Source: Entrophospora sp. SA101 (lineage: Eukaryota > Glomeromycota > Glomeromycetes > Entrophosporales > Entrophosporaceae). Taken from it: a stretch of DNA of 64,000 nt. A model generated the notes under the pieces. That model was not told the origin of the DNA. It was given only the letters and a program-made list of their open reading frames with translations, and ran no database searches. A program made the position numbers and the translations under genes. Shown here in pieces: positions 36,431 through 57,558 of this stretch. Each line of letters begins with the position of its first letter. Within the stretch, counting starts at the first letter, position 1. Location of the stretch: NCBI GenBank assembly GCA_958430865.1, contig CAUDNR010002347.1, positions 1,161 to 65,160 of the forward strand, in the 5' to 3' direction.

Positions 36431-36569
36431 TTCTGTTAGTTGGATCAAGTAAAGAATTTGATAAGAAAGACTTTCAAAAATTTATTTAATTATTGACCAT
36501 AATTACATCATCATGCATTTTGTTATCGATCGATAGTGCGGTGCAACATAGATGTTCAATCTGTAAGAA

Positions 36570-36895: not shown

Positions 36896-37116
36896 TACAT
36901 TCAATTTTTTTCTAACAAAGTGATCTCCGTTCCAAATTGGAACGCACGTGATTTTGATGAAAATAAAGCATGGACGTCCACATAATTAGATTGAGACAAA
37001 TGGTTACATAGAACCTTACTTTATTGATATATAAAAAATGTTACCGAAATAACAACATAAAAATAAAAAAAAATCATATCGCAGTTACATACTGCAGACG
37101 TAAATAAAAAAAATAA

Positions 37117-37422: not shown

Positions 37423-37539
37423 GTTTCCTAGATAAGTAAAAATTCATTTACAATGGATAGAGTCCTTATTGCAAATAATGCATAATGAACACCAGCAAAC
37501 CAAACACGTTACCTTATAAAAATTGCGAAAAGATAAGAA

Positions 37540-37990: not shown

Positions 37991-38349
37991 GACTCATAAT
38001 TATATGAATCATTATTTTTTTCTTCACGAAAAATAAACCTATCATTATATCGAACAAAAATGAATTGTGATATGTTTATCCCTCAAATTACGAACAATGA
38101 TACAAACTATATTTATACCTATATATCTCACTCATTCTCATCACAAATACCCCCACAAAATATGGCGAATATAACACTCTTGAAGAGATGGTTCGAGGAT
38201 CCAGGCCCTATGGGGCGCTCTTCGAGCATCTGGACTAAAATTGAATCGTATTATTCTAGAGTATAAAGTTATTAAATCTAATAGGTCTAAATCCTTAAAT
38301 TCGACATAATCACATAATCTCGAAAAACACTACAAATAGGTTATATACA

Positions 38350-39018: not shown

Positions 39019-39588
39019 CTTAATTTATTATAACATATCATTTATTCGATTTAATCTATTTATTAATGTATAACTTATTCATATATATTTTAAAATAAAA
39101 TCACCTAAGGTATTCCTTGAGGGCTAGTACTTTAGACTTTATTTCGATACCCCTCGAGGGCTGGTATCTTTTTTTTTTGTACCAGATTCCCATGTAAACC
39201 GAAAATATTGTTACTTATTAAAATTTACAACATCTAAATTTCATGTCATCAAACTAATTTGGCTAAGTTCATAGAAGAGGCAAAGCCTCGGGACTAGGTC
39301 CCAACATCTAAATCGTGCAAATATGGTCAGTTGATGTCTTGTGCGACTATATGCAGGGATCCCTAAATTTGGATTAACTACACATGGTTTAGATTCTTGT
39401 TAAAAATCATGCATATTAAATGTCGATTTTTTCCATCAGTATTACTAAATTTCTCAACTAGAATTTACACAAAAATGAATCCACTTATTCTAGAGTATAA
39501 AGTTATTAAATTTAATAGGTCTAAATCCTTAAATTCGATATAAATCACATAATCTCTAAAAACATTAACATTATCTTAATCATTAAAT

Positions 39589-40233
39589 ATGGTCTATACG
39601 GATAAATGTCCAGTTTTGAACGATATTGAATGGAGAGATAACTGTCAATTTCCAGTAATCCGTAAAGGTGAAACTCCATCTGATTGGATAAAACGAATTT
39701 GGGATCAGTTGACGAATTATAAGAATAATAATCGTTTGACTGACGATAAAAAGCGATATCTTATTGCCAGAAAAATGAAATATTTATGGGAAGGCGATCT
39801 TGGTCATGCTGTAGGTGTAAGTATAGCAATATGTCATTCATGTAACAATCTCGTTTATTCTAGAATCGGAAGTGGTTATGAGTGTGGATTTCCTCATTTC
39901 ATGGATAAACATTGGAGCACAAATTGCACAGGAAACGCATATTGTGATATTAGTCATAAAGACTATATGGAACTTAAAAGTAGATCAGAAGCTAGTAACT
40001 CCTACTTTGAAAAAGATGCGATTCGTCGTTATGAATTGTGGATGTCCAATGCTATCAAAAAAATTCAACGTGCAAGAGAAGTTGGAAAAAAGATCCGAGC
40101 TGTAAATATCATATCTCAAAAATGGTTGGAATATATGTACAGACCCGATGGTCTCTGTGCTTCACAATTAGCTGAACATTATAAATTATTATGGGCGGTT
40201 CGAGAAGAAATGCGTCAAGTTAGTAATGTATAA
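39589..40233 (+). CDS. C2HC zinc-type protein with IQ-like helix (tandem copy 2)
   Basis: 214 residues. Same layout as the gene 570 bp upstream: GETPSDWIKRIWDQL, AICHSC...HWSTNC, RRYELWMSNAIKKIQRAREVGKKI, IISQKWLE, RPDGLCASQLAEHY, LLWAVREEMRQ. The upstream side carries the CTTGTGCGACTATATGCAGG block, absent before copy 1. Divergence at nucleotide level with conserved protein blocks suggests selection on the protein. Confidence 0.68.
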   Translation: MVYTDKCPVLNDIEWRDNCQFPVIRKGETPSDWIKRIWDQLTNYKNNNRLTDDKKRYLIARKMKYLWEGDLGHAVGVSIAICHSCNNLVYSRIGSGYECGFPHFMDKHWSTNCTGNAYCDISHKDYMELKSRSEASNSYFEKDAIRRYELWMSNAIKKIQRAREVGKKIRAVNIISQKWLEYMYRPDGLCASQLAEHYKLLWAVREEMRQVSNV

Positions 40234-40589
40234 TACACATATCTATTTATTCGATTTAATCTATTTATTAATATATAACTTATTCATATGTATTTATTTT
40301 AAAATAAAATCACCTAAGGTATTCCTCGAGGGCTAGTACTTTAGACTTTTATTCACTGCTATTTCGTGATGATTAATAGCTTTTTTTACTTTAATTTTAT
40401 ATATCAACCTGTTTTATGGGTCACAAAAATCCCTAGTATAGATAATAGATCCTGCTTGTTATTATTACACATCCACTTAAATTTCACATCGGCTGGAGAC
40501 GATCAGCTTCTCAATAGAAGTGGCTAATAAGATGTATACTATATTATTGTATTAATAAATAACGGAAAAATAAATAATTATTTGATTGA

Positions 40590-40880
40590 TTGCTTACATT
40601 AAACTTAGACATCTTTTTTATATGAAATCGAAGAAAAAAAGTTACAATTGCAGAGGATTCTTTATTTATGATATAAATGAGATAAATGATATAAGTGAAA
40701 TTATATAATTATTATATTCGTTAAAGGTAATTAATCGAATTTGGTTAATCACGTATTATTATGATCAGGTTCGTACAAATTTTAATCTAAAAATAATTTT
40801 TATTATACAGCGTACAACATATCGTTATCTGATTGATTATGCGGATGGAATTTCAGGATTAAATAATATTTTTTTATTAA
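40590..40880. repeat. deletion derivative of a coiled-coil gene locus
   Basis: 40600-40660 matches 15865-15930, then jumps directly to sequence matching 18476-18720 (GATATAAGTGAAAT..., GGTAATTAATCGAATTTGG). The 2.5 kb between them in the split gene is absent here. This is the remnant of a second copy with the coding region deleted. Confidence 0.65.
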
Positions 40881-40882
40881 TT

Positions 40883-41672
40883 TTATCTATCATTATCTTC
40901 TTGAACATTATTCTCAATATTACTATTGTCCGAAATATTTTCAGCGAGAACTGGTATACGAGAACCCATGTTTTGTATATCTATTTCAAAGCCTTGATTA
41001 GACTGATTAATATTAACGTTCCTCCTACTATCATTAGATACTCTGCGAGGTGATCTGGATCGTCCCCTTTGGCTAGTAGAAAATTCCCGGAGATCAAGCA
41101 TCGATGAAACTTCTTCATATGATGGCGGTGGTGTACGGCTACGTTGTCTTTCTTCCCGTCTTCTAGATGATCGGTTTACATTATGAATTTGGTCGAATTG
41201 CGTTTCTATTTTTTGTAAAAAATTAGTCTTGTTAACTCTACTAATGGCTTTCAACATATTCATATAAAGTGAAATTACCAGGTCTTTCCCAAAAGCGAGA
41301 ACGAAATTCATCGAAATATCTTTCAGCAACTCTGGTTCTCCGACCCGTTCTATTTCCAGCCCCATACCGACATAATGACTAGTATAATTGGGAAATTGTT
41401 AGGAATGTAATCATAGTGAGATATCTTGGTACATATATATAGATATTTCGTAATTGCAAAAAAAAAATAATACTTACATTATGACTATTAACAAGATTTC
41501 TAAACTTGTCCTTACATTGATGACCAGTATAATTAGTGCGAAATTCTTCATTGATTTTATTTGCGATTTCATTCCAAAAATCAACTCTGCTACTGCCAAC
41601 AATATTATGGTATTCAATATTTCTAGATTTACGTTCGTTAATTAATAATCGTAATTGGTCATTGGTCCACAT
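40883..41672 (-). pseudogene. SANT/Myb-like (trihelix-type) DNA-binding gene, frame unclear
   Basis: Exon 1 (from 41672) encodes a SANT-like domain: MWTNDQLRLLINERKSRN, FWNEIANKIN, GHQCKDKFRNLV, ending at SHN|GTAAGT (donor at about 41480). The acceptor ATACTAG| near 41379 joins to a frame that reads GRRTRVAERYFDEFRSRFWERPG before a stop, while the other frame (40883-41365) reads on as ...FDQIHNVNRSSRRREERQRS...PPPSYEEV. Both look protein-like in succession, so a frameshift near 41240-41300 is likely. The domain is typical of expanded fungal and transposon-linked transcription-factor-like proteins. Confidence 0.5.
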
Positions 41673-41724
41673 CGTGAAAATGGAAATAATAGATATGTAA
41701 AAGGTATGGAGATAGACACAAAAA

Positions 41725-41957
41725 ATAACTTATATTTATACTACTTTTTTCTAAAAATCGAATTAACGGTTGTTAAAGATGATTTACTATATTTTAGCGG
41801 AGCTAACATGGCTAATATTACGATTTACTATATTTTAATATTATGATTTACTATATTTTAATATTATGATTTACTATATTTTAATATTATGATTTATTAT
41901 ATTTTAGCGGAGCCTTTAGTGTAACTAAAGATATTATGATTTACTATATTTTTAGCA
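41725..41957. repeat. ATTTACTATATTTTA repeat block, copy 2
   Basis: Near-identical to 18705-18938, including both TTAGCGGAGC flanks. It is followed by TCTAGC-rich sequence, whereas copy 1 is followed by the HIS4 fragment. Confidence 0.85.
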
Positions 41958-42174
41958 TGATTCTAGCTCGACTCTAGCACAAGTATGATATTTTACATAT
42001 AATTATATAGAAAAAATCTAGCGTGACTCTAGCTTGATTCTAGCATGATTCAACCACATTTAAACTCCGGTTTTGGATAATTTTCATAATTTCCATTATT
42101 TCCATAATTTTCATAATTTTTATAAAGATTTTTCTATTTCTCTATATGTTGAATATAATTATACCAGCTACAAC

Positions 42175-42669
42175 ATGTCGGCAAAATTTAATCAAGCATA
42201 TTCAGAATTAATCCGGAAACTACCACCCTCACTAGTGCACGAGACTTGGAAACGTCTTATTTTCAGAAAGCGGGATCCAATACCAGAAGAAGATGCTAGT
42301 GCTGTAAATCCATTAATAGAAGCATTTTTAAGACATGAAGTTAATAGGTACCAGAAAAAAATAAAATTTCAGCATCGAAGTTGGCCTTCATTTGAAAATT
42401 TATCGTATATATATAATAACGAAGTTAGCAAGGCTATAAAAATGGGTAATAAAGAAACTCAAACTCAAAATACTGAACCGATTTGTATATGTAATCATGA
42501 GGAGGAAATTAATTATCGCGTTAAGAAAGAAGTTGAAGTCTTATTCCAGCACTTACTGAAATTTAATGAAAGAACATTTGGGCAATTTATGCAGGAATTA
42601 GATAGAGATTATAAAGAAAGAGACGATATAAGTAAGAAATTACGTTGTGAAATCGAAGAAAAAAGTTAG
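42175..42669 (+). CDS. unknown 164-residue helical protein
   Basis: Start taken at MSAKFNQAYSEL; the longer frame upstream is translated from a CATAATTTCCAT-type repeat. The protein is charged, with HETWKRLIFRKRDPIPEED, CICNHEEEINYRVKKEVEVLFQHLLKF and a C-terminal helix rich in Arg/Glu. No known family. It faces the ATPase gene at the edge of the Maverick-like gene set, so it could be an element gene. Confidence 0.5.
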   Translation: MSAKFNQAYSELIRKLPPSLVHETWKRLIFRKRDPIPEEDASAVNPLIEAFLRHEVNRYQKKIKFQHRSWPSFENLSYIYNNEVSKAIKMGNKETQTQNTEPICICNHEEEINYRVKKEVEVLFQHLLKFNERTFGQFMQELDRDYKERDDISKKLRCEIEEKS

Positions 42670-42765
42670 AATTACGACATGCAGAAAAAGCACTTGCATG
42701 TATGAAACAATAGCAGAGCCTTTAGTAGCAAAGCTAGCACGGCTATAACTAAAGATTTATTCATC

Positions 42766-43508
42766 CTATTCATTAGAAATTTCAAGAGGTTGATCCCAAC
42801 CAGCACGTATAAAAAATGGATCATTTTTTTCTCTTGTTAAATCTATAACTATAAATTTACGACCATGTAAATATTTATCAATCACTTTGACTACATTACG
42901 CCAATTATCAATATATCGACGAAGAATTCTGGTAAGATCATCTGTATTACAACTACCATTAAAGAGAACTATATAATCTAAATTTTTTCTTATTATTGAA
43001 GGACAATCAAAAAAACTTTGAGAAATATAAATCGAGCTAATATTAGAATGTCGTCCTTCAGTAAAATAAGGAATAATTTTTTCTTGTATCTTTTTAGATT
43101 CGCTACATACATCTTCAAATACAGCAACTGTACTTCTTTCAGGAGAATATGAATCTATACTTGGAATTTTATCCGGTTTCATAGTCCGGAACGTAATATT
43201 TTCATGATATGGTTTTGAACTATTAGCGATCATTTTATAACAGTCTCGTAGATATAAATATTTTGGTGATGACCAAAAAGAATTAGATCATCGTTTCGAA
43301 TATAACGACTTCCTCCTTTTTTACCAGTAAACATTCGATAAAGCTTGTCACCAAGTAAGAGATTAACGACCATATTAGTTTTTCCGGAATTACTTCGCCC
43401 TGAAACTAACATTTTAAATGGCCATCTAGGTCCAGCTTCATGTCCGTTGTTTTTTTCTGCGTTTTTAATTTCATCGATGTTATATACAAAAAGTTGCATA
43501 GCTTTCAT
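42766..43508 (-). pseudogene. A32/FtsK-HerA-type packaging ATPase, frameshifted
   Basis: The upstream frame (43508-43230) has Walker [11 protein letters not shown] in [21 protein letters not shown]. The second frame (43233-42766) has Walker [10 protein letters not shown] and the conserved [18 protein letters not shown], then [10 protein letters not shown]. These are the marks of viral and Maverick/Polinton genome-packaging ATPases. The frames overlap by ATGA, and the upstream codons of the second frame (RDCYKM) read as the natural continuation. So the gene is one ATPase with a single-base indel shortly after FGHH (about 43255-43270). It is the last gene of the minus-strand pair with integrase, 48 bp apart. 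Confidence 0.72.
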
Positions 43509-43556
43509 TCTAGTTAAGCCAAATAACGGTAATTTTTAATTGTTATATATTTTATA

Positions 43557-45197
43557 TTATAGATAACCTTTTTCAATTAAAACGTTTTTAATATAGGGAT
43601 ATAAATCAGCCGTATAGGGAATCTCAATAAGATCTATGCTTTCTCTTTTACATAATTTGCGCTTTTTCTGATCTCGATTTTTCTGGCTTATTAAATCTAC
43701 TTCTCCATTTTTTCTATGGTATAAACTATTACGATTAAAGTGTTGGACTCCATTATACTCCCAAGCTAATTTCAATTCTTCATTATATCCATCTAAGCGT
43801 AAACCATCTAGAAATTTTGGCGCACATGGTGTAAATTTTTTATCTAATAAATCCTCAAAAATATATCGGCATCTGCGTTCTTCTTTAAAATGAGGACAAA
43901 TAGGACACCATTCAAATTTCTTAGCAATTAGCGGAAATGGATATTCGAATTGATGAATCCCGCAAGACCAGAGAAATACTTCCTCATCATTAATTCTACC
44001 GGTTTTTTCAAGACAACTTCCGCCATGTTTCTTAGCATAGGTACAAGCTTGATCTAGTTCGTTATTTAAAACCAGAATAAAATGAACTAATCGGGGATGA
44101 TTCTTTTCCGATAATATACTTTGGGGTGGGTATTGAAGCTTTTCTAAATCTACATAAAACAATTCCTCCCTTACAAATCCTCGCTTAGGCGTAAATTCAT
44201 TACCTTCAAGATAATATAATATAGGTTCGTTTTTTGAAACTATGATTTTTCGAATTTTATGAATAGATGGCGAAAATGTTGGATCCGTGGCTCTTTTCTG
44301 ATTCTCCATACCTCCTTCCCATTCTCCATTGGCAAGTAAGTAACGAACTGTATCGCCCTTTTTTAACTTTTTTTCATCTCTTCCAACCGGACGTTTATAT
44401 TTCGTAGATGGTCTAGATTCAACCTTTTCTAACTTAATTGCTTTTATAGGCGCTAATCCCCATTTCTTCGACCCAGGAGCTTTAATAAGTCGAGTTGCAT
44501 AATTATTTAGGTAATTGATAACTTCTGGCAAATACTTAACCCACTCTCTTATTAATTTAGGATTTGAGGATATAGTTTCAACGGCATATTGTACTTTATA
44601 CAACATTTCTGCAAGAGTTTTATTAAATCTTTCCACGATTGCGAGTCCTCGATGGGAATATAGACCAATTACTCGGATTATAACATTATGTTCTTGCATT
44701 AATCTTGAAGTTTCGCCCATAAATTCGCGCCCTCCATCACATTGTAGTAACCGAGGCCAAATAAGAGGATTATCCGGATTATTATAAATTTTCTTAAAGG
44801 CTTTGGCAACTTCTGAACTATTTTTGGAAGTGAGCGGAATGGCGTATTTAAATCTACTGGCGATATCTACAATAGTAAGTACCCATTTATATATTTTTCT
44901 ATCTACTATATCATTGGTAAGACGTAAAAGGTCGCACTGATGTACGTAATTTGGGCAAGTAATTTTACCATAACTAACTCGCGGAATATATTTTGGTGAC
45001 GGTGCATGTTTCTGCCATTCATTCTGATTCATAAGCCAATCACGCACTTTTTTGAATGGAAATCGATATCCTTCTGTTTTTAGATCTCTATATAATAATC
45101 GAGAATTGGAATGATAACCGGTAGTTTGATAATAAAGCAATCTACAGACTAGATCTAACTCTTCATCTGGATCGACTCTAATAATAGGTTTATTCAT
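43557..45197 (-). CDS. Maverick/Polinton-like DDE integrase with C-terminal zinc/nuclease-like domain
   Basis: 546 residues, intact. DDE catalytic triad: Asp89 in HQCDLLRL, Asp154 in LQCDGGREF and Glu189 in [13 protein letters not shown] (34 residues between D and E), preceded by an N-terminal helical region. A KPV-like basic linker and an SH3/chromo-like segment ([25 protein letters not shown]) follow. The C-terminal third is unusual: CPICPHF...C then [47 protein letters not shown], a pattern of VSR/PD-(D/E)XK-type small endonucleases. It is divergent from the Gag gene (70 bp apart) and followed by the packaging ATPase. It would integrate element DNA in the nucleus. Confidence 0.8.
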
Positions 45198-45267
45198 TTT
45201 CGGTGTAAGTTAGTTAACGTAAATGATTAATGAATTTTACTATGTAACTATAGTTTAAGGACAAAAA

Positions 45268-48228
45268 ATGGATTATAAATTCGATCCAGCATATTTACAA
45301 CTGTTAGACACCAACCGGGAATTACGGCAAGAGATAAATGATGAAGTGAATAATAATAATACAAATGAAAAAAAAATCCGGCATCTCATAAAAGAGTTAG
45401 AGCAATGTAATAGGACCGTTTTTCATCAAGATTCTACTATTGTATACTATGAATCAGAGATACAGGAACTTAAATTCCGGATTTCCAATCTTGAAAAGCG
45501 TCTACAGAAGGCATTAGTAGATATTGAGCATAAAGAGGATTCGTTGGTTATATCAGATAGTAGAATAAATGAACTTCAGGAAGAAATAAATACTCTCAAA
45601 AATAGAATTCGAGATTTGACGTCGCGAAAAAATAAAAAACTTTCCATGTCTCAAGTATCTAATATGAATGAGACCAGAACCATTGTCGAATCAGTTCGAA
45701 ACGCATTCAATAATATTGATTCCGTATTACGAAGAATACCAGGTCTCCCACGAAATATTGAGAGTGAATTTACTGATATTAAAAATGCCGTGACTAGACT
45801 TCAAGGTGTAGCTAATAGGGAAAAAAATCGAGCGGATCAGATTCAAGTCCAAGTAGCTAGACTACGGAGAGAAATTAAAGCATCTGAGGATGAAAATGCA
45901 TTATCACTCATGGCGTATAACAATGAAAAAGAAGCACGCCGTAGTTGGTATTTCTCATATAAAGATAAACATAGGCGAGTTGGAGAAATGATACGAGAGA
46001 AATTTGCATATAAATTTTTAATCCGCCATTATGCAAAAAAGTTAAAGGAGTGTCAGGATCACGGTAAAGCTCTCAATTTCAAACTCAATTCCATAGAAAA
46101 AGCAAAAAATAAACAGTTATTGCAAAAACATCTATCTGAATGGGAGTATAAAACACGAGAAGCAAAAGGTTTAACGATTAAAGTTCCAATGCCTAATTCA
46201 CCTGATTTCTCGTCATCTTTTTACTCAGATTCTAGCGATACTGGAAGTCTAACAGGAGGTATGCGCCAAAAATTTGATACAATCCATAGACATAGTAGAA
46301 GAACTAGTGATATTTTGGGTAATATTGAAGAGGAATTACATTCTAGCGATAATGAGGATAGTGAAAATTCATCAAACTCCATAATTATCGAAGGTACGTC
46401 TAATACTGATATACCGCCCCTATTTAATGACCCGAATTCTTCTAGTTCAGATGATTCAGATGATGAGGAAATTCGAAGTTTATCTTCTTCAGATGATGAT
46501 ATTCATACAAGTTGTAGACAAATCCACATTCAGAATATTAGATTACGACGTAAGGCAGAACAAGATTTACTAGAATGCCGCAATGAAAAGGGCCTATTGG
46601 AATTTAATCGAGATCGCCTTGTGAATGATCTTGAAATAGCTGAGGATGATATCATCGATCAGAACCGAATAATAAATATTTTAAATCAAGAAAATTTATT
46701 GCTTCGGAATAATAATCCGCATATAAATAACAATCGAACAGGTATGGTTGGTTACGAATTAAAAAAATTTCATGGATCTCCTACTGAAGATCCCGAAGAA
46801 CATATTGAAGAATTTAGATTGTGGCTTGTAGGTTCTGGAATAGATGTAGGTGCTGGCCATGCTAATAGAATTAATGCTCATGGTGTTTTTATAGCGTCTC
46901 TCAAAGGTGATGCTAAAGATTGGTATGAAAGAACCATCCATGGAAAAAATTGGGAATTGAGGAATTTACTTGATAATACGGCACAAGCTAATTTAGGTGC
47001 CGTTCAAGGACAAAATGCAGGCCAATTGGGAGCACAAGCATTAAATCGTGCAAATGGGCAGAATGGTAATGTTATAATTCCAGCTCATACAGTATTTGAT
47101 GAAGACTGGTCTTTTGCTGATGGACGACCAACTGATCGTTTACCTAATGCACCAAATACTAATACAGGTAATACTGTAGTTGTACCTGGTATTCGACTCG
47201 GACAAGTATTATACTGGTTTAGAACTAACTATCCTACAGTTACTGCAGAGAAACAACGAGTACTTTTTGGTTCAACTGTTCAAGGAAGTGATCCTGTTGG
47301 CCGTTTCTATTCTAATTTGCGAAGGTTAGCTAGGCTTGCAGGTATAGATGTACAACAAATTCGATTACAATTTATTCGTGGACTTTCACCCGCCAACCAG
47401 ATAGAAGTTCGTCGTTTAGGGCTTGAAAAATCTGTAGATGAATTACTTCCAAAACTTGAAGAAATCGAAAGATATACAGCAGAACAGTTATCTGGAGCTT
47501 ATTTACGTCCAATTTCAGATCCAACGTCAACAAATAAAATTCGTAATAAAGATAATGTTTCAGATAATACCGGTATGACTGAAACTGATATCAAAAACTT
47601 AGTAAAATCTATGATTTCCTCTTCAGAACAAGATGAATCTTCTCAAATTCACGAAAGAAAATTATTACGTCCTAGTCAAATGGAACCAGGAAAAATATAT
47701 CGGGGTCCAGGTTTGCGCTTAAATGACCAAGAATGGCTTCGAATGGATGAGGCAACAGATCGTCTTAGTGCTTTAGCAGGTCCATCTTATCTACAAACTT
47801 TCATGGATAAAATTAGTAAAGGAATAATGGATAGAATTACGCCTCTCTTACCCCAAAAGAAAAAAAATACTTCTAATGATGGTATGGATGAAATTACTAA
47901 TGGTATGGCAGAATTATCAATAAATAATGCTATAGCAAAAGGTATTGAAGCAGGCGTCAATGCTGTTATTAAATCATCCAAACACCGTTGTTCGAATTGT
48001 AATAGAACTGGACATAATTCTCGCAAGTGTACTCGTAAGAAAAGGTCCAAGAGTAGATCCAAAAAGAGAGGCAGTGTTAATAAGGTTGCTGTAGATTCGG
48101 GTTCAGATACAAACTCTTCCAATAATGATTCTTCAGATAATAACTCCGATTCTGGGGATTCCTCGTCTGAAGTTGAATCTGATCATAGTTTTGATGTACA
48201 CGTCTCTAAAGCAAAAAAAAACAAGTAA
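45268..48228 (+). CDS. Gag-like capsid polyprotein with long N-terminal coiled coil
   Basis: 986 residues. Residues about 10-110 and 140-300 are coiled coil, followed by Ser/Asp-rich linkers (SSSDDSDDEE) and a second coiled coil (about 420-490). The retrotransposon Gag domain starts near 495 (KKFHGSPTEDPEEHIEEFRLW, ASLKGDAKDWYERTI) and continues past a Gly/Asn insertion (FYSNLRRLARLAGID, FIRGLSPANQIEV). A CCHC zinc knuckle CSNCNRTGHNSRKC lies near 910, then a basic and Ser/Asp tail. The N-terminal coiled coil is not usual for Ty3-type Gag. The frame ends at TAA right after an A-rich slippery site, with the protease in the -1 frame. Confidence 0.8.
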   Translation: MDYKFDPAYLQLLDTNRELRQEINDEVNNNNTNEKKIRHLIKELEQCNRTVFHQDSTIVYYESEIQELKFRISNLEKRLQKALVDIEHKEDSLVISDSRINELQEEINTLKNRIRDLTSRKNKKLSMSQVSNMNETRTIVESVRNAFNNIDSVLRRIPGLPRNIESEFTDIKNAVTRLQGVANREKNRADQIQVQVARLRREIKASEDENALSLMAYNNEKEARRSWYFSYKDKHRRVGEMIREKFAYKFLIRHYAKKLKECQDHGKALNFKLNSIEKAKNKQLLQKHLSEWEYKTREAKGLTIKVPMPNSPDFSSSFYSDSSDTGSLTGGMRQKFDTIHRHSRRTSDILGNIEEELHSSDNEDSENSSNSIIIEGTSNTDIPPLFNDPNSSSSDDSDDEEIRSLSSSDDDIHTSCRQIHIQNIRLRRKAEQDLLECRNEKGLLEFNRDRLVNDLEIAEDDIIDQNRIINILNQENLLLRNNNPHINNNRTGMVGYELKKFHGSPTEDPEEHIEEFRLWLVGSGIDVGAGHANRINAHGVFIASLKGDAKDWYERTIHGKNWELRNLLDNTAQANLGAVQGQNAGQLGAQALNRANGQNGNVIIPAHTVFDEDWSFADGRPTDRLPNAPNTNTGNTVVVPGIRLGQVLYWFRTNYPTVTAEKQRVLFGSTVQGSDPVGRFYSNLRRLARLAGIDVQQIRLQFIRGLSPANQIEVRRLGLEKSVDELLPKLEEIERYTAEQLSGAYLRPISDPTSTNKIRNKDNVSDNTGMTETDIKNLVKSMISSSEQDESSQIHERKLLRPSQMEPGKIYRGPGLRLNDQEWLRMDEATDRLSALAGPSYLQTFMDKISKGIMDRITPLLPQKKKNTSNDGMDEITNGMAELSINNAIAKGIEAGVNAVIKSSKHRCSNCNRTGHNSRKCTRKKRSKSRSKKRGSVNKVAVDSGSDTNSSNNDSSDNNSDSGDSSSEVESDHSFDVHVSKAKKNK
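48216..48222 (+). promoter_or_regulatory. candidate -1 ribosomal frameshift site (gag-pro)
   Basis: Heptamer A AAA AAC in the Gag frame (GCA AAA AAA AAC AAG TAA). Slippage by -1 continues as CAA GTA AAG CGG, which is exactly the frame of the protease region and stays open for about 327 codons. This is the classical slippery heptamer of several retroviruses. No clear pseudoknot was found by eye downstream. Confidence 0.65.
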
Positions 48229-49205
48229 AGCGGAAGAGTAAATCGGATAAATCATTATATAAAAAGTCTGGTTCAAAGAAGAGACAGAGTCTCGAATCTC
48301 CGATTCAACGTTCTTCACAAAAAATACAAAAGAAATCAGGTACGATTATCGACTCACAAATTCGAAAAATTATTCTAGCTATGTTTAACGATCCAGAGGT
48401 TATAGAAACGATTAAAAACAATATTAATAATACGAATTTATCTATGACTCGAAGAGTCGCCCCAAGGCCTGCAAAACCTGACTTTACTGCAAAGCAGGGC
48501 ACTTCGTGCTTAAATTATCGAGAGCCGGCCCCAGAAATACCCGAATCAGATGACGAAGAGGAGACACTGAACGATCCTATGGAGATAGATTTTGTTCGAA
48601 GAAAGGAACCTACCACAAGCCTTGCAACTATACCAGTTAAAATTCGACGATTGAAAATTCCAGCAATGTGTCTTGACAGTGGAGCTGAACCTGCAATTGT
48701 ATCAGAAGATATTGTTAAACGTGTAAATTGGCCAATTGATAAATCAGAAAAATACGATCTTAGTGGTGTTGCAACAGTTCCGACAAAATCTATTGGTATT
48801 GCTCGTAATTTCCCAATAACATTCCCTCTAGGTTTTACTATACGTGAAGATTTTGTAGTTGTACGACCTCCTAAACCAACTTTGATATTTCCAAATCCAC
48901 TTCTCAAGAAATATAAATGCGCTATAGATTGGGGGAAAGATGAATTGAAAATTCCTTTCAATGGGAAGGATCACATTATTCCAGTAACTATGCACAAGGT
49001 AAAAAATAATCTTGAAGTAAATTGCGCTACCGCATCTCAGAATGATAAGTCTTCGGTATCTGATCAAATTTCTCAAGAGACAGATAGTGATAAGGATGAC
49101 AATATAACATTGGAGGAATGGCATGCTCCTGTGCGTTTTATCCCAGATTCTGACGATTCATCATTAGCAGAGCAAGTACCAAAGGTGTTAAAAAAAAATG
49201 CGTAA
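48222..49205 (+). CDS. retropepsin-like aspartic protease domain
   Basis: Reached by -1 frameshift from gag; an internal ATG at 48381 could start it independently. Catalytic motif MCLDSGAEPAIV with one Asp-Ser-Gly per monomer, and a downstream hydrophobic strand with GIARNFPITFPLGF and FPNPLLKKYKCAIDW, as in retropepsin dimers. The segment upstream of the protease contains the short palindromic repeats GACTCGAAGAGTC and GGGCACTTCGTGC in frame. Ends with TAA at 49203-49205 next to a second slippery site. No reverse transcriptase or RNase H follows. Confidence 0.75.
   Translation, partial: QVKRKSKSDKSLYKKSGSKKRQSLESPIQRSSQKIQKKSGTIIDSQIRKIILAMFNDPEVIETIKNNINNTNLSMTRRVAPRPAKPDFTAKQGTSCLNYREPAPEIPESDDEEETLNDPMEIDFVRRKEPTTSLATIPVKIRRLKIPAMCLDSGAEPAIVSEDIVKRVNWPIDKSEKYDLSGVATVPTKSIGIARNFPITFPLGFTIREDFVVVRPPKPTLIFPNPLLKKYKCAIDWGKDELKIPFNGKDHIIPVTMHKVKNNLEVNCATASQNDKSSVSDQISQETDSDKDDNITLEEWHAPVRFIPDSDDSSLAEQVPKVLKKNA
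49193..49199 (+). promoter_or_regulatory. second candidate -1 frameshift site
   Basis: TTA AAA AAA AAT GCG TAA in the protease frame contains A AAA AAT. A -1 shift enters a 38-codon open frame that begins CVNCERYEKE and ends with TAG at 49313-49315. The CxxC start makes coding plausible; the small size leaves doubt. Confidence 0.4.
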
Positions 49206-49355
49206 ATTGCGAGAGGTATGAGAAAGAAATGTATGATGCAACAAAAATTATCACTAATCTTAATACTCTTGTTTATCACTACATTGGATTACCTGGTAAA
49301 GAAAATAGAGAGTAGGGTCGCCCTGCTTTGCAATAGAATAGACAAAATTCGGAGA

Positions 49356-49943
49356 TTATAACTCATCAATTTTATATTTCGAATTTGATAAATTTTCCTT
49401 GCCTTCTTCTACTGCACGTCTAAAAGAGGCTAATGTATCTGTAGAATATGCAGGCTTTTCATCTATTTTTTCTATTAAGTCTTTGGTGATAATAGGCAAG
49501 TTGGATTTTCGAACAGATTTGGATCTCTTTGTTTTTGTTCGTTTACTTGGTTCTTCTGATATATTATAACCCTTTAGGGTTGACTCTTCGGTCCTACATA
49601 GCAATGGGACTTTATCTCTATCTAAAGACAGGGATTCTATATGAAGAACATCTGTAGCAGAATTTGATATATTAGCGGAGCTAGTGTCAGTGGCAAAGCC
49701 ACGAGTCTCCGACTCAAGACACTTAGTATCGTGATTATATGTTTGAGGTATAGGTTGATCCCAAGCAACCCTATTAGCTTCTTCTCTCCAGATTTGATAA
49801 ATCCGTTTTGATGATGTTCTATATTTTTTTAATAAATCCTTTAAAATTTCATTTCTTGGTTCCAAATCACGGCATTGCATAATATAATCATAATCTGCTG
49901 AAGAAAATAAAGGTGTGCCAAATTTTATACGTGGTCTAACCAT
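49356..49943 (-). CDS. unknown protein with helix-turn-helix-like N-terminus
   Basis: 195 residues from MVRPRIKFGTPLF; the frame upstream is an ATATATC repeat. The segment YDYIMQCRDLEPRNEILKDLLKKYRTSSKRIYQIWREE has the look of a resolvase/HTH helix pair. The remainder is polar, with a KRTKTKRSKS basic patch that may be a nuclear signal. At 49681-49722 the coding sequence carries a short palindromic repeat (GGCAAAGCC, GAGTCTCCGACTC) found elsewhere between genes. It lies tail to tail with Gag-Pro and could be an element regulator. Confidence 0.5.
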   Translation of the reverse strand: MVRPRIKFGTPLFSSADYDYIMQCRDLEPRNEILKDLLKKYRTSSKRIYQIWREEANRVAWDQPIPQTYNHDTKCLESETRGFATDTSSANISNSATDVLHIESLSLDRDKVPLLCRTEESTLKGYNISEEPSKRTKTKRSKSVRKSNLPIITKDLIEKIDEKPAYSTDTLASFRRAVEEGKENLSNSKYKIDEL

Positions 49944-50216
49944 AATGCTGGAAGTAACTACACAGTAGCTATTTTTATTTGGAAAATACAATATATTAAA
50001 ATATAAAAAATAATGGAAAAATGTAATATATCGGAAAAATGTAATATATCGAAAAAATGTAATATATCGGAAAAAATATGTAGAATAAAAAAAGAGTTCC
50101 CTAATATTCGAAAAAAAATAAAACATATCAAATATATCAAATATATCAAATATATCAAATATTCCTATTGCTTTCAAAATTTTTAATTTTTTAACGAAGC
50201 AAGTTTTATTAATATT

Positions 50217-51245
50217 ATGGATATCAATGAAGAATTGCGTTATGGTGTAAAAATTATATCCGAATTAAATGCTTGCAATAAAACATTGCGAGATACTCAA
50301 TTAAAACAAAATAAGAAGTGGGATCGGGAAAGAAAACAGTGGGACCGGGAAAGAAAGCAATGGGAAAGTGCATTTGATAATGTTAATAGTGATAAACAGA
50401 AGTTACATACCCACGCTTCAGAACTTATTGGTGAGACTAAGCGGTTGAAAATTGAAAATACTAACCTTACCTCTGAGAATATTCGTAAAGATCTTTCTCT
50501 TGCTGAATCCAAGGCTGAGAATGATATAAAATCTAAGAAAATTAGATCACTTGAGTCTATGATCAAGATATTGGAAGGTAAGTTGAAATCGGCTCAGATG
50601 GATGTGCTTTCGATTCAAAATGACTCACTAAAAAAAGATTCCGAGATATTATCCCTCAAATCCAAAATAGCTGAATTAGAAAATATAAAGAGCTCATTGG
50701 AATCAAAGGTCAATGAGCTTGAGTATCTGAAATCGGAGGCTATATTGAAACCCATAGTTGGTGGTGATGACGGAAAAAATATTACTAAGTCTGATAATAT
50801 ATCTTTGGGTAGTACTGATCTCAGTAAATATTTTGTACGCAGAAAAAATATGGATCAAGCTGGAAAAATTGATACTATTATACCGAATTACACTGATGAT
50901 GAAAGTACTCCTATACCCAAATCTCCGAGAGTAAATACTGAGATTACTCCCAAGGTAAGTGATGAAACTAACATTAGCGAAACTAACAAGCCTATTATGT
51001 TTCAAAACCAAGAAATAAAGAATCTGACCCCATATCTTGCACAACCAGAAAATTATATCCTCTCTCCGATCAAACCACATCCTCAGATTTCGGTGGGAGG
51101 AATAGAAGCAATAAGACCTAGTCTTGAGGCTTTGCCTCTTTCTGCTGTGGCAAGCACTTTGATGTCACTGCTATCAGCATATATTTGTCTTATTTTGTTT
51201 ATTATCACGGTTATGTGGTTCGTGAGAACGTACATGGGGGTTTGA
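50217..51245 (+). CDS. coiled-coil protein with C-terminal transmembrane helix
   Basis: 342 residues. Coiled coil from about residue 10 to 185 with a KKWDRERKQ / RKQWDRERK tandem repeat near 30-45. A polar linker follows, then a single hydrophobic helix at the end (STLMSLLSAYICLILFIITVMWFV) leaving a five-residue tail, the layout of a tail-anchored protein. The coding sequence at 51114-51143 contains a GAGGCTTTGCCTC palindrome also seen at 39.28 kb. It ends TGA TAG. It lies between the HTH-like gene and the polymerase, so it may be a structural or membrane protein of the element. Confidence 0.58.
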   Translation: MDINEELRYGVKIISELNACNKTLRDTQLKQNKKWDRERKQWDRERKQWESAFDNVNSDKQKLHTHASELIGETKRLKIENTNLTSENIRKDLSLAESKAENDIKSKKIRSLESMIKILEGKLKSAQMDVLSIQNDSLKKDSEILSLKSKIAELENIKSSLESKVNELEYLKSEAILKPIVGGDDGKNITKSDNISLGSTDLSKYFVRRKNMDQAGKIDTIIPNYTDDESTPIPKSPRVNTEITPKVSDETNISETNKPIMFQNQEIKNLTPYLAQPENYILSPIKPHPQISVGGIEAIRPSLEALPLSAVASTLMSLLSAYICLILFIITVMWFVRTYMGV

Positions 51246-51369
51246 TAGGAAAAAACATGATCGGTTACTGGATACGTGGATTGGACATTAGAAGTCATCT
51301 ATTTAAACTTGGGATTTATTTATGTACGAAAAAATATTAATTCTATTGTATAGGTATCTTAGTAGATAT

Positions 51370-54300
51370 TTATAATGGGCTCACCGCTTTATTCCATGTA
51401 TTTAGAAAATCGTCAAGTGCCATTTGATCGGATTTCGTTATATTGGATAAGGTAGGTTGCTCGGCAATAATCTCTTTTTTTCTCATAGTCTCTGGTTGGC
51501 CAATTTTATCTGGGATTGTTATATGTTCTTTATATCGCATATGATATACTAACTTATGGAAGAAAACATCATATTTCTCGATAATTGGGATAAGTACATT
51601 TAGATGTTTCGTAAAATCCACGCATATAGATTCTTTTACTTCATCACTTACCAAAAGATCATCATTCTCAGTATATGCTCTGGCGTATTTCAAAAACTTT
51701 TCCCACAATCTTTCGATAGAATCATTACCTTTAAAATCCTCAAAATTGATCCATTCACCCTGAAGAATTTCATATGATTTTCCTATATTTTTTGATAACA
51801 TCTCTCTTCCTTTTTTCACAGCATTTTTATAAGCACGTTTATAGGCGTACCCACGATTAGATATTATTTTAGAATCTATTCCATTTATCTCCTTAATATA
51901 CGACTCAAGCCACTTCTTGGCCTTATTTTGAGTATAGATATCAATCTGTTTATACTTCTCATCCAAGTCAGAAATTTGCATAATCTCATCGGTAGGTGGT
52001 GGTTCATATCTTTTATCATACATTATGAATCGGGCACAAAGTGCAGTAATAGTATTTTCAAAGTAATGGGATAGATCCAACTCCTTATTTAATTCTTTTA
52101 CAACATCCACGAATTCCATTTGGTCACTCTTTTTCAGTGTAAGCTTTTTACCAGATAAACCAAAGAGTGAATCCGGGTGGATCATTACATAACTAAAGTG
52201 TTCTCCTGGATCTGGAATCTTTTTTTCATATTCTTTTCTCATCCGTTTTATAAACTTTTGAACACGTATATTATTTTTATTAGGCTTCCACACAGCTGAC
52301 TCTATAAACTGCTCGAAATCCCATTGTTTAGGATTGGATACAGCTTCTTTAAGAACATCTTCAACAATCTGATGGAGTGAACGTACATTATTGATATCCA
52401 TAACTCCCCACATGATTCGATCTCCTATAGTTCTAAAAAGTTGGGACTTACCTTGTTTTATGGTATCAATCCCTTTGATGAAAAGTTCATCTGGTTTGAA
52501 GTTCACAGCTTCCTTGTGTGCTATACCAAAATACTTCTTCTTACCAGTAAAACAGACGGGAAATAATACCTCTTCATATGCCATTTTTAGGTAAACCGAT
52601 CTGCTTTTTAACCTAAGAAATGAATTTACCTCATTACATAGTCTTTCCATTACCTTCATAGTAATTTCAACCATTTCCGTCCAATACTCTAACTTTGAGA
52701 TTGTACCTTTGCCATTATTATAAGCGAGATCACATTCTTTATAATAATTATTGGGGGATTTAAGATACAAAGAGTCTGTATCACCATACATAATTTCAAA
52801 ACCTTTCTTTTTCACGTATTCTGCAACAAGCTTAATATTATACTGCCCCGCTGATGTAACGCCACCAGCAAGCTGGCGTATATAAAAAGGTGAGAGACTG
52901 TTGCCCGTTTCACCATAAAATGAATTCATATACACTTTTAATGCTTTCTGCTTTGAATCTAAGTAGCTGTAGTCAAAACAAATTGAATCATATTCTTCTA
53001 TAAAATTCTTATAATGTGTTCCAATAAAATTATTTAGGGTTTTGGTCACGTCTAGGCATTTCTTTTCATCTTTTATATCTTCCAGAATACCTTTAATGGT
53101 TTCTACAGTTACTATCGAATTAACTTCAGAATTTATTCTACTTTTCACAAGTCCCATATGCTCTATTTTCTTTCCAAGGGGTTTCAATTGGGTCTTCATC
53201 TCATTTCACTTATTAAGTAAATATTCTAATAGAGATGGATATAAGCCTTTTTGGTTAGATTTGTTTTCATGTCGTATGCTCCATGCATGAATGGTTCCAC
53301 CAAACTCAATTGTATGAAGTACTTTGTTTTCTTTCTTTAGTACATTTGCTTCAGTTAATGTATATACCATCTTTTCTGGTGATAAATTATAAGTCATAAT
53401 AAGACTCGGATACAATGATGCAAAATCCAAACCTGTAACTGGACGTTTATCTTCAAGCCTTTATCTGGAGGGTATACATAAGCTCCTGGGAATGATCCTT
53501 TTTCAGTTTTTTTCATTATCATGGTAACTAGAATATCTCGCTTCCATGCTTCGGCACCTAAGAGATTACGTACCTTCATACCTATAGCATAATAATGTGA
53601 ATCGAATAAAGATATATAAGCAATAGATGCTAAGCCCCTATAGTCATTTATCATATTTTTCTCCACCATAAGTCGCTGACAAGATTTAGCATCCACGATA
53701 CAATACTCTGCAATTTTATGCATATATTTGGTAGTTTCAGTCGTAGTAGAGATTTTGCTTTGCTCATAATATTTTCTCATATTCTTTATAGATAAATCTA
53801 TTTTACTTTCGAGACCATTGATTTCTAAGTAATGGTTAAGTGTATTTATCTCAGAATCCGGATGAAGTTTTTTACAACATACTATCACATCAATCGGAAC
53901 ACATCCGGGAATTTTAAGAAAGGTGGATGTAAACGTTTTGTCGGGAGTGATTTTAATTTCTATTCCTTCCCGATTCTTTATTTTTTTTTCTTTGATATTA
54001 TGATTATCCTTTTTCCCTTCCGATTTCACTTCCCATGTGTTTTCCTTATGAAAGAAATCTTTATAGAAAGGTTCGCCTACCCCTCCATAGTAATTCCAAC
54101 GAAGAATACCATCAATTGTAGACTTTTTACGTGGATTTGCTGACATTTTTGTCAACATCCAATCTAAGATTTTCCACTGAGTAGCTCTTTCTACTATGAA
54201 TGGCCAGTCATATTTAGATCCATAATATGTAAGTTCGATATCGGGGGCTAATAATTGCCAGCATAAAGCAAATGCTTTTAGTAGATTTTTTTCATTTCCA

Positions 54301-55517
54301 CAAATAATCGTTATCCAATTTGGATCTGGTGCAGTTTCCATATCAACGAGACAAATCTGTTTCAATGGTTTTGGATCATCCTTCCAGTGAACAGTCATAC
54401 AAATCATAAATATGTTATCTTCTTTATATCTTGCCATAGGGACATGGTCCAATCCAAGCGTTGAATGCGTTTCTATATCCCAGGTAAGAACTAGTGCTCG
54501 ATCATGAGTAATGAATGAAGATGGATAAGCCTTATATAATACTATAGGATCCTCTACAGAATGATAATTATTAATAGATACATAGAAAGCGTGTCCACAA
54601 AGTGGAGAACGAACACTATAAGGCATCCTGCCATTATTATATTCATACTTGGTTAATAAAGCCCATCCAGAGAGTGGTATCCTATATTCTCGAGCAACTT
54701 TTCGGTAATATGCTCTCAAATCATCTGAGGCGGTTTCCAGTTTGTGCTCGTCGGCGATTTCTAAATTGTAATTTAAAATAATTGTAAGAGCGATTGATCT
54801 TTGCTTAATATCAGTTGTAACGATGCGAATATGAGGTTTTGGTTCTTTATAATATCTACTGATTGGAAATGCTTTTATATGTTCTGTCCGGAGGTTGGTC
54901 ATATCTACGACCCCCCTTTCATCTTTTCCATTGGCAAGAATATTTTTTATTTCGATCTCAAATACGTCAATATTTTTATTATCAGGGACGCGAATATCAA
55001 AGAAAACTTTTATACCGGAAATAGTTACTACAGCTTTTTGACCATCAACAAGAAAACCATAAATACGTAAAATGTAATGTGGGATATTATTTATATATTC
55101 ATTATATTCTTCAATGTCTATTGGCATAAAAGGTATATCTTCTCCATTGACTAAAGCCTGTTTAATAGTTGCCATTGATCCGTAGTCATCATTTTCTGTA
55201 ATTATCATATTGCGACTTGGATGGACTGGTAAATACTCTCTCCCATTGTATCGATATACTTCGCTTACTTTTTTACTTTCCGAAATCTGTGATTGAGGAA
55301 AAGCTTTAAACCCCCAGTGGTAGAACGCCCCATTATTTTCTGCCTCTAACTCTGGCTCGAAATTTTCAGCAATTTCTGGGCTCTCTGGTCAAGAAAGTGA
55401 TACTTCCGCCTCTGTTGGCGCATGATTGATGTTTTCTTGGAAATTTTGGTTTTCCACAGTTGGTATATCGGATGATACAGGTACAATAGGCATGCTATGT
55501 TCACTTTGGGTACTCAT
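51370..55517 (-). pseudogene. family B DNA polymerase, NCLDV/eukaryotic-replicative type, decayed
   Basis: Reading from ATG at 55517 to TAA at 51370-51372. An exonuclease domain shows TWDIETHS (Exo I), TYYGSKYDWPF (Exo II, with Ser at the usual Asn) and YCIVDAKS (Exo III). Polymerase motif A is in the 53206-53430 frame ([11 protein letters not shown]), motif B is [12 protein letters not shown] and motif C is MYGDTDSLY. Three lesions break it: TGA at 55389-55391, a one-base deletion near 53455 just before motif A, and TGA at 53206-53208 at a place where relatives have Arg (LLxxRxxxK). The motif set differs from the polymerase at 22.3-26.9 kb and resembles polymerases of large DNA viruses and of eukaryotes. 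All catalytic residues remain readable, so loss is recent. Confidence 0.82.
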
Positions 55518-55629
55518 GTTTTTTCTGAAAGTATAATATTCGGAATTAAAAAGTTCAAAATGAAAATTAATTCTAAAGAATATTGATCAGTACATATTAT
55601 ATACTCAATCAAGATAAACATCAAAAAGA

Positions 55630-55890
55630 ATGGCATTTTATCGTTGTCCCTATATCCTTAGAACTGGAGAAGTCTGTAATCGGCCATGTTACCATCCCAA
55701 TGGGTGCAAAGTTCACCGGGATTCACCTATTCGTTACCCTTGTAAAGAATATGGTTGTGTTAAGTTAACTTATTCCGATTATGGTTATTGTGACCCCCAT
55801 GCACAGAAACATCGTAGAAGAGAGTATAATCAACAGAAGAAGCTGGAGAAGATGTCACAAAAATCAGAAGCACTTGGAGAAAATACATAG
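55630..55890 (+). CDS. small Cys-rich (zinc-type) protein, second copy
   Basis: 86 residues. MAFYRCPYILRTGEVCNRPC, PNGCKVH, CKEYGC, YGYCDPH, then a basic coiled tail. Homologous to the 91-residue protein at 21957-22232 by Cys/His spacing and the GEVC..R.C...P.GC..H string. It is divergent from the polymerase (112 bp between ATGs), the same arrangement as at 22.2 kb. Confidence 0.65.
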   Translation: MAFYRCPYILRTGEVCNRPCYHPNGCKVHRDSPIRYPCKEYGCVKLTYSDYGYCDPHAQKHRRREYNQQKKLEKMSQKSEALGENT

Positions 55891-56547: not shown

Positions 56548-56823
56548 TAAGGATAACCATTCGGCACTACGTGCCTCATCATTGGATGCTTTGGTGTATT
56601 ACCAGATATGTTAACAATTCGGCACTACGTGCCTCATCCTTGGGTTACCAAATAGGATAACAATTCGGCACTACGTGCCTCATCCTTGGGTTACCAAATA
56701 CGATAACAATTCGGCACTACGTGCCTCATCCTCGCGTTTCCAAATAGGATAACGATTTGGCACTACGTGCCTCATCCTCACGTTTCCAAATAGGATAATG
56801 ATTCGGCACTACGTGCCTCATCT
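56548..56823. repeat. 46-bp minisatellite
   Basis: About six units with core TTCGGCACTACGTGCCTCAT and a CTTGGGTTACCAAATAGGAT spacer. Each core is itself a palindrome (GGCACTACGTGCC). The core occurs inverted at 538-557. Confidence 0.9.
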
Positions 56824-56990
56824 TTGACGAGGCAAATGCAAAACGTACGTCATTCGAATGACGAGGCAAATGCAAAATGTACGTCACTCGAATGACGAGG
56901 CAAATGCAAAATGTACATCATTCGAATGACGAGGCAAATGCAAAATGTACGTCACTCGAATGACGAGGCAAATGCAAAACGCTCGTCATT
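56823..56990. repeat. 34-bp minisatellite
   Basis: About five units of GACGAGGCAAATGCAAAATG plus TACGTCACTCGAAT, with ATTCGAATGAC-type palindromic joints. It directly follows the 46-bp array. Confidence 0.9.
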
Positions 56991-57016
56991 TTCGGGTGGG
57001 TTATAGTCCGCACTAA

Positions 57017-57056
57017 GTGGGATACTTGGAGTCTGTACAGACTCCAAGTATCCCAC
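57017..57056. repeat. 40-bp perfect palindrome
   Basis: GTGGGATACTTGGAGTCTGT followed by its exact reverse complement, without loop. It lies at the 3' edge of the decayed gag and at the right edge of the minisatellite region, so it may mark an element terminus or a recombination junction. Confidence 0.9.
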
Positions 57057-57558
57057 TCCATGTTAGAATAATCAAGCCTGGTGTCTTCCTCCAGACTTCA
57101 GCTTGTCCTTTCAAGCATGTTGGTGCTATTTGAAGTCTTTTTTCAATAGAAGTATTATTCGCCTCACATGCTTTGTTAAAACTTCTCCACTACTGATGTG
57201 GGTCATCTACTTCTCCATTGAATTTAGGCAATTCCACTAGCCTTTGTTCCCCTCCTCTACTTGGACGTTCCATTCTGTTTGCTAAATTTAACAATGCATT
57301 CACTAGATCTCCTGCTGGGGGCACTGGTCCTCCTCATCCTCCTGCTCCATCTCCTTGTGGTGCTGGCCCTCCTCCACCTCCACCTGCTCCATCTGGTGCT
57401 GGTTCTCCTCCACCTCCACCAAATCCTCCTGGTCCACCCCCTGCTCCATCATATGGTGGTTGTGGTGGTGGATAAAAATGGAGTCCTCCTCCATTATTTA
57501 GCAGTGGTGGTTGATTATTGTTATTGTTTGTTATTAAGTATTGACACATAAAAAACAA
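57057..57558 (-). pseudogene. Ty3-type gag fragment
   Basis: Minus-strand start MFFMCQYLITNNNNN leads into a Gly/Pro-rich tract. After a TGA (57334-57336) comes NALLNLANRME, LVELPKFNGEVDDPHQ, a TAG (57190-57192), then WRSFNKACEANN, IAPTCLKGQAEVWRKT. FxGxxxDP...W...F....aN...LkGqAxxW is the Gag signature of Ty3/gypsy elements. The zinc knuckle and pol are absent. The proline-rich open frame on the plus strand is its antisense shadow. Confidence 0.68.

Follow-up and report, generated by a model that had tools for sequence, protein, structure and literature searches.

The stretch analyzed here is a 64-kb window of the genome of the arbuscular mycorrhizal (AM) fungus Entrophospora sp. SA101, which belongs to Glomeromycotina (contig CAUDNR010002347.1), and all window positions are counted from its first letter. 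Between 42.2 and 57.1 kb it carries a gene set in which an integrase (INT), an A32-like packaging ATPase, and a family B DNA polymerase (PolB) accompany a Gag and an aspartic protease (Pro) of retroelement type. The left half runs small open reading frame (ORF) (+), ATPase (−), INT with a nuclease-like tail (−), Gag (+), and Pro (+); after Pro come a second small ORF (−), a coiled-coil gene (+), PolB (−), a cysteine-rich ORF (+), tandem arrays, and a palindrome. A preliminary description of the window had placed the ATPase, INT, PolB, a Gag with zinc knuckle, and a retropepsin here, and profile and motif matches bear this out. Genome-wide searches covered the 101-Mb assembly, and the resulting match counts are lower bounds; other contigs of the same genome are designated by C-numbers (C2085, C638, C253, etc.).

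The ATPase (42766–43508, minus strand) is split into two overlapping frames, 43230–43508, which holds the P-loop, and 42766–43233. It matches Pfam Pox_A32 with an E value of 9.1e-5, at 22.5 bits just below the cut-off of 22.8, and the ATPase of C638, with the P-loop GRTNSGKS, also falls slightly below the curated cut-off (E 3.7e-4). INT (43557–45197, minus strand) matches rve (PF00665) with an E value of 3.5e-7, slightly below the cut-off as well (30.9 versus 32.6 bits). Motif positions give a catalytic triad of D89, D154, and E189, with a spacing of 35 between the last two; the C-terminal nuclease-like domain was recognized by eye, and in C1399 it is a separate gene on the strand opposite the integrase. 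There are 82 INT matches in the genome. A comparison of INT with the PDB gave no significant match (best E 0.57), and a likeness to Polinton integrases is presumed.

PolB lies on the minus strand in two parts, a C-terminal one (51370–53199) with a YGDTDSL motif and a PF00136 match (E 1.1e-25), and an N-terminal one (53394–55208) with a 3'-5' exonuclease domain (PF03104, E 1.1e-16). The C-terminal part is 96–97% identical in C1295 and C343. The window copy is thus partly decayed, both the ATPase and PolB being broken across two frames, and uninterrupted versions occur in other copies: ATPases of 255 aa (C638) and 263 aa (C2085), a PolB of 1143 aa, and open frames of 1399 aa. The uninterrupted PolB of C2085 matches PF00136 at E 3e-42 and PF03104 at E 5.8e-14, and its best PDB match by far is 8ywg (1206 aa, E 5.8e-217, versus 2.3e-19 for Pol delta), which we take to be the African swine fever virus polymerase.

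Gag (45268–48228, plus strand) has an N-terminal coiled coil (by eye), a capsid-like region (46744–47493), and a single canonical CX2CX4HX4C knuckle at residue 908 (47989–48030); over 92% of the query, it shows 100% identity with a protein from Entrophospora sp. SA101. Its capsid region alone gives a weak Retrotrans_gag match below the Pfam cut-off (E 0.031). When five relatives were scanned singly, one scored above the curated cut-off (26.6 versus 24.1 bits, E 7.2e-6) and two below it. Among 30 family members, zf-CCHC was found in 21 and Retrotrans_gag in 10 at E values up to 1, and five of eight capsid regions scanned alone matched Retrotrans_gag. A second type of capsid region, seen in C1399 and in the Gigaspora protein P0050, has no Pfam Gag match and retains the knuckle and Pro. 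Comparison of the capsid alignment with viral contigs returned 74 pattern matches, with no relative among them.

Pro (48210–49205, plus strand; first ATG at 48381, catalytic DSG at 48675) is of the retropepsin type. In the PDB, the family profile matches DDI1 proteases of the retroviral type with an E value of 4.6e-5 and Ty3 Gag-Pol 7q5b with one of 0.0018, and the window protein by itself gives weak matches (best E 0.2). The active-site motif reads DSGA in the window (DSGAE) and four other genome copies, DSAA in three, and DPGA in C1399.

The Gag frame of the window ends in A AAA AAC AAG TAA, so that the heptamer A AAA AAC (48216–48222), read in the frame of Gag, begins 10 nt ahead of the stop. 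Pro is in the −1 frame relative to Gag; this frame is open from 16 nt before the Gag stop, far upstream of the first Pro ATG. We examined ten Gag-Pro junction segments, with C1348, which spans two separate stretches, excluded and the Gag frame of C1476 placed by its end motif since its knuckle region reads N. A heptamer, a −1 Pro frame, and an overlap are all present in 8 of the 10. Seven of these have A AAA AAC; the eighth, C1399, has A AAA AAA directly before the stop with an overlap of 7 nt. The two others, both from C1095, were left unscored, as they contain a slippery run while the Pro motif falls outside the segment cut. The sequence A AAA AAC is the site used by mouse mammary tumor virus and human T-lymphotropic virus, and a −1 gag-pro layout is retroviral. 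Judged from this arrangement, the heptamer at the end of Gag is probably a −1 ribosomal frameshift site. RNA folding 3' of the slippery site in four copies gave −5 to −17 kcal/mol without a shuffle control, and we claim no stimulatory structure.

The preliminary description had asked whether these genes form one unit and had suggested a search for other copies with the same gene order. Such copies exist. The window proteins were compared by tblastn with 20 stretches of eight contigs (C638, C253, C1476, C2085, C1736, C505, C1348, and C1095) and with C1399. The full set from small ORF to PolB is present in C2085 and in one copy on C638. Partial units are found in a second C638 copy, which lacks the ATPase; in C253, where the contig start cuts PolB; in C1736, which ends inside Gag; in C505, without an INT match; in C1476, without an INT or Gag match by tblastn; and in C1399, where the stretch starts at the nuclease gene. 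The genes present in partial copies keep the order and strands of the window, and the C1095 copy is rearranged. Identities between the window and the other copies range from ∼23% in parts of Gag to >90%; for C1399 they are 43% (INT), 45% (Pro), and 55% (coiled-coil gene). Because the same order recurs at other loci, the gene set is beyond chance: the ATPase, INT, Gag, Pro, and PolB are one recurring, conserved, multicopy unit.

Linkage across the genome was measured from Pro, for which 69 matches merge into 65 loci, with neighbors counted within 10 kb. INT is found at 29 of these loci, PolB at 14, and at least one of them at 35; among the 44 longer loci (450 bp or more), 31 have INT or PolB nearby. 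Of 26 pairs of Pro with an INT match longer than 700 bp, 24 keep the arrangement of the window, as do 15 of 16 pairs of Pro with PolB. At none of the 65 loci is there a reverse transcriptase match within 10 kb, in agreement with the preliminary description, nor is a canonical Retrotrans_gag match found in that range; as a control, 12 of 17 ordinary Retrotrans_gag loci have a reverse transcriptase within the same distance. Counted in the other direction, Pro lies within 10 kb of 25 of the 39 INT matches of 700 bp or more. The preliminary description had named integrase or ATPase copies without Gag-Pro neighbors as a refuting observation; the other 14 INT matches have no Pro in range, one of them (C1388) being at a contig end. 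This count used 46 of the 69 Pro coordinates, and the omitted ones do not lie on the contigs of those 14.

These data bear on the alternative raised in the preliminary description, that a Gag-Pro retroelement without reverse transcriptase, or its remnant, jumped into a DNA transposon. The Gag, CCHC, and retropepsin modules are indeed retroelement types, and INT and PolB are both missing within 10 kb of 30 of the 65 Pro loci. However, self-comparison of the window shows no direct repeats resembling long terminal repeats (LTRs) around Gag-Pro, and LTRs flanking it had been named as an observation that would overturn a single unit; the absence of reverse transcriptase extends to all Pro loci, Gag-Pro has the same position and strand in most of the diverged copies, Gag-Pro and PolB appear to share contigs in two further genera (see below), and dN/dS, the ratio of nonsynonymous to synonymous substitution rates, is below 1. 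A nested insertion is already contradicted by these observations, and we regard it as very improbable.

Nei-Gojobori estimates of dN/dS were made between the window and the other copies for matches of 80 residues or more. Gag gives 0.22–0.71 in 14 comparisons and Pro 0.17–0.47 in 12, all below 1, with 0.22–0.25 for the coiled-coil part of Gag (n = 5). INT gives 0.14–0.18 in the five comparisons with usable dS, the ATPase 0.16–0.26 (n = 3), and the PolB parts 0.13–0.36 where dS is usable. The small ORF at 42175–42669 gives 0.22 and 0.23 in two comparisons; that at 49.4 kb gives 0.67 in one and is identical in the other. The ratio is thus below 1 wherever dS is usable, with the qualification that dS is high or saturated in many comparisons and that the copies are not independent, the pair on C638 being nearly duplicates of each other. 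A stop codon occurs in one match each for Pro, the ATPase, and PolB. In the comparison with C505, dS is 0.09 for Pro and saturated for the C-terminal part of PolB; since dS differs so between genes against one copy, the copies are mosaic.

The probable right terminus of the element is a perfect 42-bp palindrome, AGTGG...CCACT, at 57016–57057, preceded by 46-bp and 34-bp tandem arrays (56599–56990) with related arrays in C505, C638, and C1348. A palindrome lies ∼1.2–4 kb outside the PolB N-terminus in all six copies for which the right flank was examined (window, C505, C1736, C2085, C638, and C1476), and in five of the six it reads AGTGG...CCACT. Across 198.6 kb of examined loci there are only 8 palindromes whose arms reach 13 or more and whose G+C content exceeds 20%, and the window contains two with arms of 16 or more, versus none in each of five mononucleotide shuffles. 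At C638:56411–56446, a palindrome has right-end-like sequence of another element to its left and the right end of this element to its right, an apparent tail-to-tail junction. As a left edge, position 41957 was considered and rejected: only the homology between two window repeats stops there, and homology to C638 and C2085 goes on past it, both rightward and, at a lower level and in blocks, leftward. Collinear ORF blocks lie left of the element (window 6000–18939 and 27000–42000; C638:70000–84700), and for this reason the element may measure at least 30 kb in full. The C638 block encodes a DUF5906 protein (E 1.9e-18), and one of its ORFs resembles the RING ORF found at 8892–9917 of the window.

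Relatives of the element occur in other AM fungi. A quick PolB tree of 65 rows, comprising 60 of 120 listed relatives (chosen by name and spread) and five Entrophospora pieces, separates 38 AM-fungal rows from 27 metagenomic rows by one branch with a support of 100; some rows are short, and long branches are flagged among the metagenomic ones. Within the AM-fungal clade, the window sequence clusters with those of Paraglomus and Diversispora, the C638 sequence with Cetraspora, and that of C2085 with Gigaspora; the Rhizophagus irregularis polymerases included in the tree also fall here, those listed reaching 71–73% identity to the C2085 PolB. This mixing of host genera suggests that the element has either moved from host to host or persisted as old lineages in several of them; an agent that passes between hosts would be expected to show the grouping of the window with Paraglomus and Diversispora. 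For Gag, where the best 8000 candidates by shared words were scored, the named relatives among the matches listed are all from AM fungi (Entrophospora, Diversispora, Paraglomus, Cetraspora, and Gigaspora), and several hits are unnamed. In Paraglomus brasilianum, a Gag-Pro (P0030, gene 5240), whose Pro part is 84% identical to the window Pro, and a PolB (P0081, gene 5237) are each on a 10,132-bp contig; in Gigaspora rosea, Gag-Pro P0050 and PolB P0077 are each on a 150,949-bp contig. The equal sizes within each species argue that the two genes sit on the same contig in both fungi.

The asfarvirus type of the polymerase raises another possibility, that repeated giant-virus insertions left genome debris and that PolB, INT, and Gag ended up side by side in it fortuitously. 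There is precedent in R. irregularis, for which PMC10640383 (2023) reports a 1.5-Mb asfarvirus-like insertion together with 15–33 asfarvirus-like polB genes per genome, at places that vary between strains, and takes the scattered polB as a sign of widespread, ongoing infection. Chance debris does not readily account for a short gene set that keeps recurring together with an integrase of its own and right ends that are palindromic, nor for the A32-like ATPase within the unit, as neither an A32 ATPase nor a major capsid protein (MCP) is reported in PMC10640383 for any of five R. irregularis strains. We consider this explanation improbable.

Taken together, these observations lead us to read the window as holding a copy of an integrating, self-synthesizing DNA element of AM fungi, an endogenous virus or virus-like transposon, whose DNA-packaging shell is built of Gag-Pro; we put the probability of this reading at roughly 65%. 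The DNA element may have borrowed a retroelement shell. In such an element, PolB would copy the element as DNA, while Gag and a minority of frameshifted Gag-Pro would assemble the shell, within which the CCHC knuckle of Gag would bind nucleic acid. The retropepsin would mature the Gag shell, the A32-like ATPase would load double-stranded DNA into it, and the integrase would insert the element DNA into a new nuclear genome, with the palindromic ends possibly serving as replication or resolution sites. Gag-Pro would thereby replace both the jelly-roll capsid and the cysteine protease of Mavericks.

That the Gag shell packages DNA is what gene content, selection, and the frameshift layout point to. 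It is also conceivable that the element is real and that its Gag-Pro serves another end, forming RNA or protein capsules or a nucleoprotein for intracellular transposition, in which case it would be a transposon and no virus. RNA is the usual ligand of CCHC knuckles, some domesticated Gags form capsules, and no envelope or receptor gene was recognized among the ORFs scanned. Against this, an A32-like ATPase is constrained in the same unit (with the three dN/dS values given above), and particle assembly requires a frameshift layout of this Gag:Gag-Pro kind. We think a nonpackaging role unlikely.

Several observations weigh against an integrating element with a Gag-Pro shell. The capsid fold of Gag is assigned from sequence profiles: Retrotrans_gag was absent from two of the five capsid regions scanned singly, no Pfam Gag or zf-CCHC match was obtained for the C1399-type Gag, whose knuckle is a pattern match, and the capsid-region profile matched no Gag structure in the PDB. 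An intron rather than a frameshift could join the Gag and Pro frames. The unit is not intact everywhere, as seen in the Pro loci with neither INT nor PolB in range, in C1348, where Gag, Pro, and the coiled-coil gene occur but INT and PolB are missing, and in C505, where no INT match was found despite 4.9 kb on the expected side. In the C1399 integrase (586–1770 of the C1399 stretch), the position of the catalytic glutamate is a lysine. The left end of the element was looked for and not found: on that side there was no convincing inverted copy of the right end, other palindrome, or terminal 14-mer, and a terminal inverted repeat and target duplication were looked for and not found. Lastly, no Rhizophagus name appears among the Gag relatives listed, though Rhizophagus has many such PolBs.

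The preliminary description had called the gene set Maverick-like. The term fits in part: the rve integrase and A32-like ATPase agree with it, and the asfarvirus-type PolB and the lack of jelly-roll capsid and adenoviral-type protease matches in the ten ORFs scanned do not. With Mavericks/Polintons the element shares an rve integrase, an A32/FtsK-type ATPase, a family B polymerase, and multicopy integrated DNA. It differs in its PolB, which is of the PF00136/PF03104 asfarvirus type rather than protein-primed, in its palindromic right end, and in having Gag and a retropepsin in place of a double-jelly-roll capsid and cysteine protease. Among ten element ORFs scanned, there was no Pfam match to a jelly-roll capsid, which if highly divergent could escape detection, and none to an adenoviral-type cysteine protease, an aspartic protease being there instead. 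The MCP profile of nucleocytoplasmic large DNA viruses (PF04451) had no match in the genome, nor in control genomes. The element could nonetheless be a true Maverick/Polinton that exchanged its capsid and polymerase and kept the integrase and ATPase backbone, a view compatible with the reading we prefer. The presence of these two proteins favors such an origin, as does the right terminus reading AG...CT, since Maverick ends read AG...CT. The polymerase type, capsid, and protease are all different, however, and we hold a Maverick origin as possible, if somewhat unlikely.

Other known systems share some parts. The asfarvirus-type PolB links the element to Asfarviridae and Nucleocytoviricota; RNA polymerase, capping enzyme, and VLTF3 gave no match among 20 window ORFs scanned, these ORFs being the extent of that search. 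The asfar-like polB loci of R. irregularis belong to the same polymerase family, but PMC10640383 reports them as lone genes in regions under 300 kb, interprets them as left by viral infection, and nowhere uses the words 'integrase' or 'gag' in its main text. With Ty3/Gypsy elements and retroviral gag-pro, the element shares the capsid/CCHC/retropepsin layout, the DSGA active site, and A AAA AAC with pro in −1, whereas none of its Pro loci has a reverse transcriptase nearby, the window shows no LTRs, its integrase is encoded separately and on the other strand, and its polymerase is of DNA-virus type. The Polintons of Glomus intraradices are likewise AM-fungal and are said in PMC7805220 (2021) to have no detectable MCP; that article also suggests that some Polinton-like viruses may infect fungi. 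In the open-license literature searched by title and abstract start, we found no DNA element described with PolB, integrase, and Gag-Pro, and no exchange of capsid modules between elements that reverse-transcribe and DNA elements that encode a polymerase of their own.

The remaining genes of the unit are less readily assigned. The small ORF beside the ATPase (42175–42669, plus strand) is in the same place in C2085, C638, and C253 with 42–54% amino acid identity. The small ORF between Pro and the coiled-coil gene (49356–49958, minus strand) is helix-turn-helix-like by eye; it is 100% identical in C1348 and 29–33% identical in C253, C1736, and C1399. The coiled-coil protein (50217–51245, plus strand) has a C-terminal hydrophobic anchor by eye and is a candidate membrane or tegument-like protein; its gene adjoins Pro in both C638 copies and in C253, C2085, C1736, C505, C1476, C1348, C1095, and C1399, with 28–71% identity. 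The short cysteine-rich ORF (55630–55890, plus strand; frame by eye) shows similarity at the DNA level only, in C505, C2085, and C1736.

In C1348:45976–64964, Gag-Pro and the coiled-coil gene adjoin an ORF that resembles the helicase-like one located 1.9 kb into the window. The Gag-Pro region there is flanked by two 80-bp palindromes (50411–50490 and 60450–60529), and ∼5 kb on each side is 100% identical and inverted, as in a deletion derivative, an inverted duplication, or an assembly artifact. At the far left of the window, ORFs at 1860–5147 match Herpes_ori_bp (best E 1.3e-14), and nearby are a palindrome with 18-bp arms at 98–133 and repeats akin, in inverted orientation, to the right-end repeats of the element. 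A tyrosine-recombinase-like ORF was seen by eye at 5412–6668 and at C638:72770–73858, with no Pfam match. Pieces of a HIS4-like host gene (by eye) lie between two repeat blocks at 19033–21027. A second polymerase-like region at 22311–26747 resembles a protein-primed PolB by eye, with no polymerase Pfam match and an Endonuclease_7 match below the cut-off (E 2.2e-4).

Capsid type is the backbone of high-rank virus classification. If the DNA element does package itself in Gag-Pro, a capsid would have been swapped from reverse-transcribing elements into the DNA virosphere. We give slightly better than even odds to the broader proposal that the element represents a new class of double-stranded DNA virus of fungi, with a virion made of retroelement Gag, which a retropepsin would process and into which an A32-type ATPase would load DNA, and that the multicopy 'asfarvirus' polymerases of AM fungi are parts of such proviruses. 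This would bear on two open questions, the nature of the capsid of AM-fungal 'Polintons' (PMC7805220) and why R. irregularis has many polB and no major capsid gene as reported in PMC10640383. According to the abstract of the latter, no double-stranded DNA virus of fungi is known to date, and the element described here would be a concrete candidate for one.

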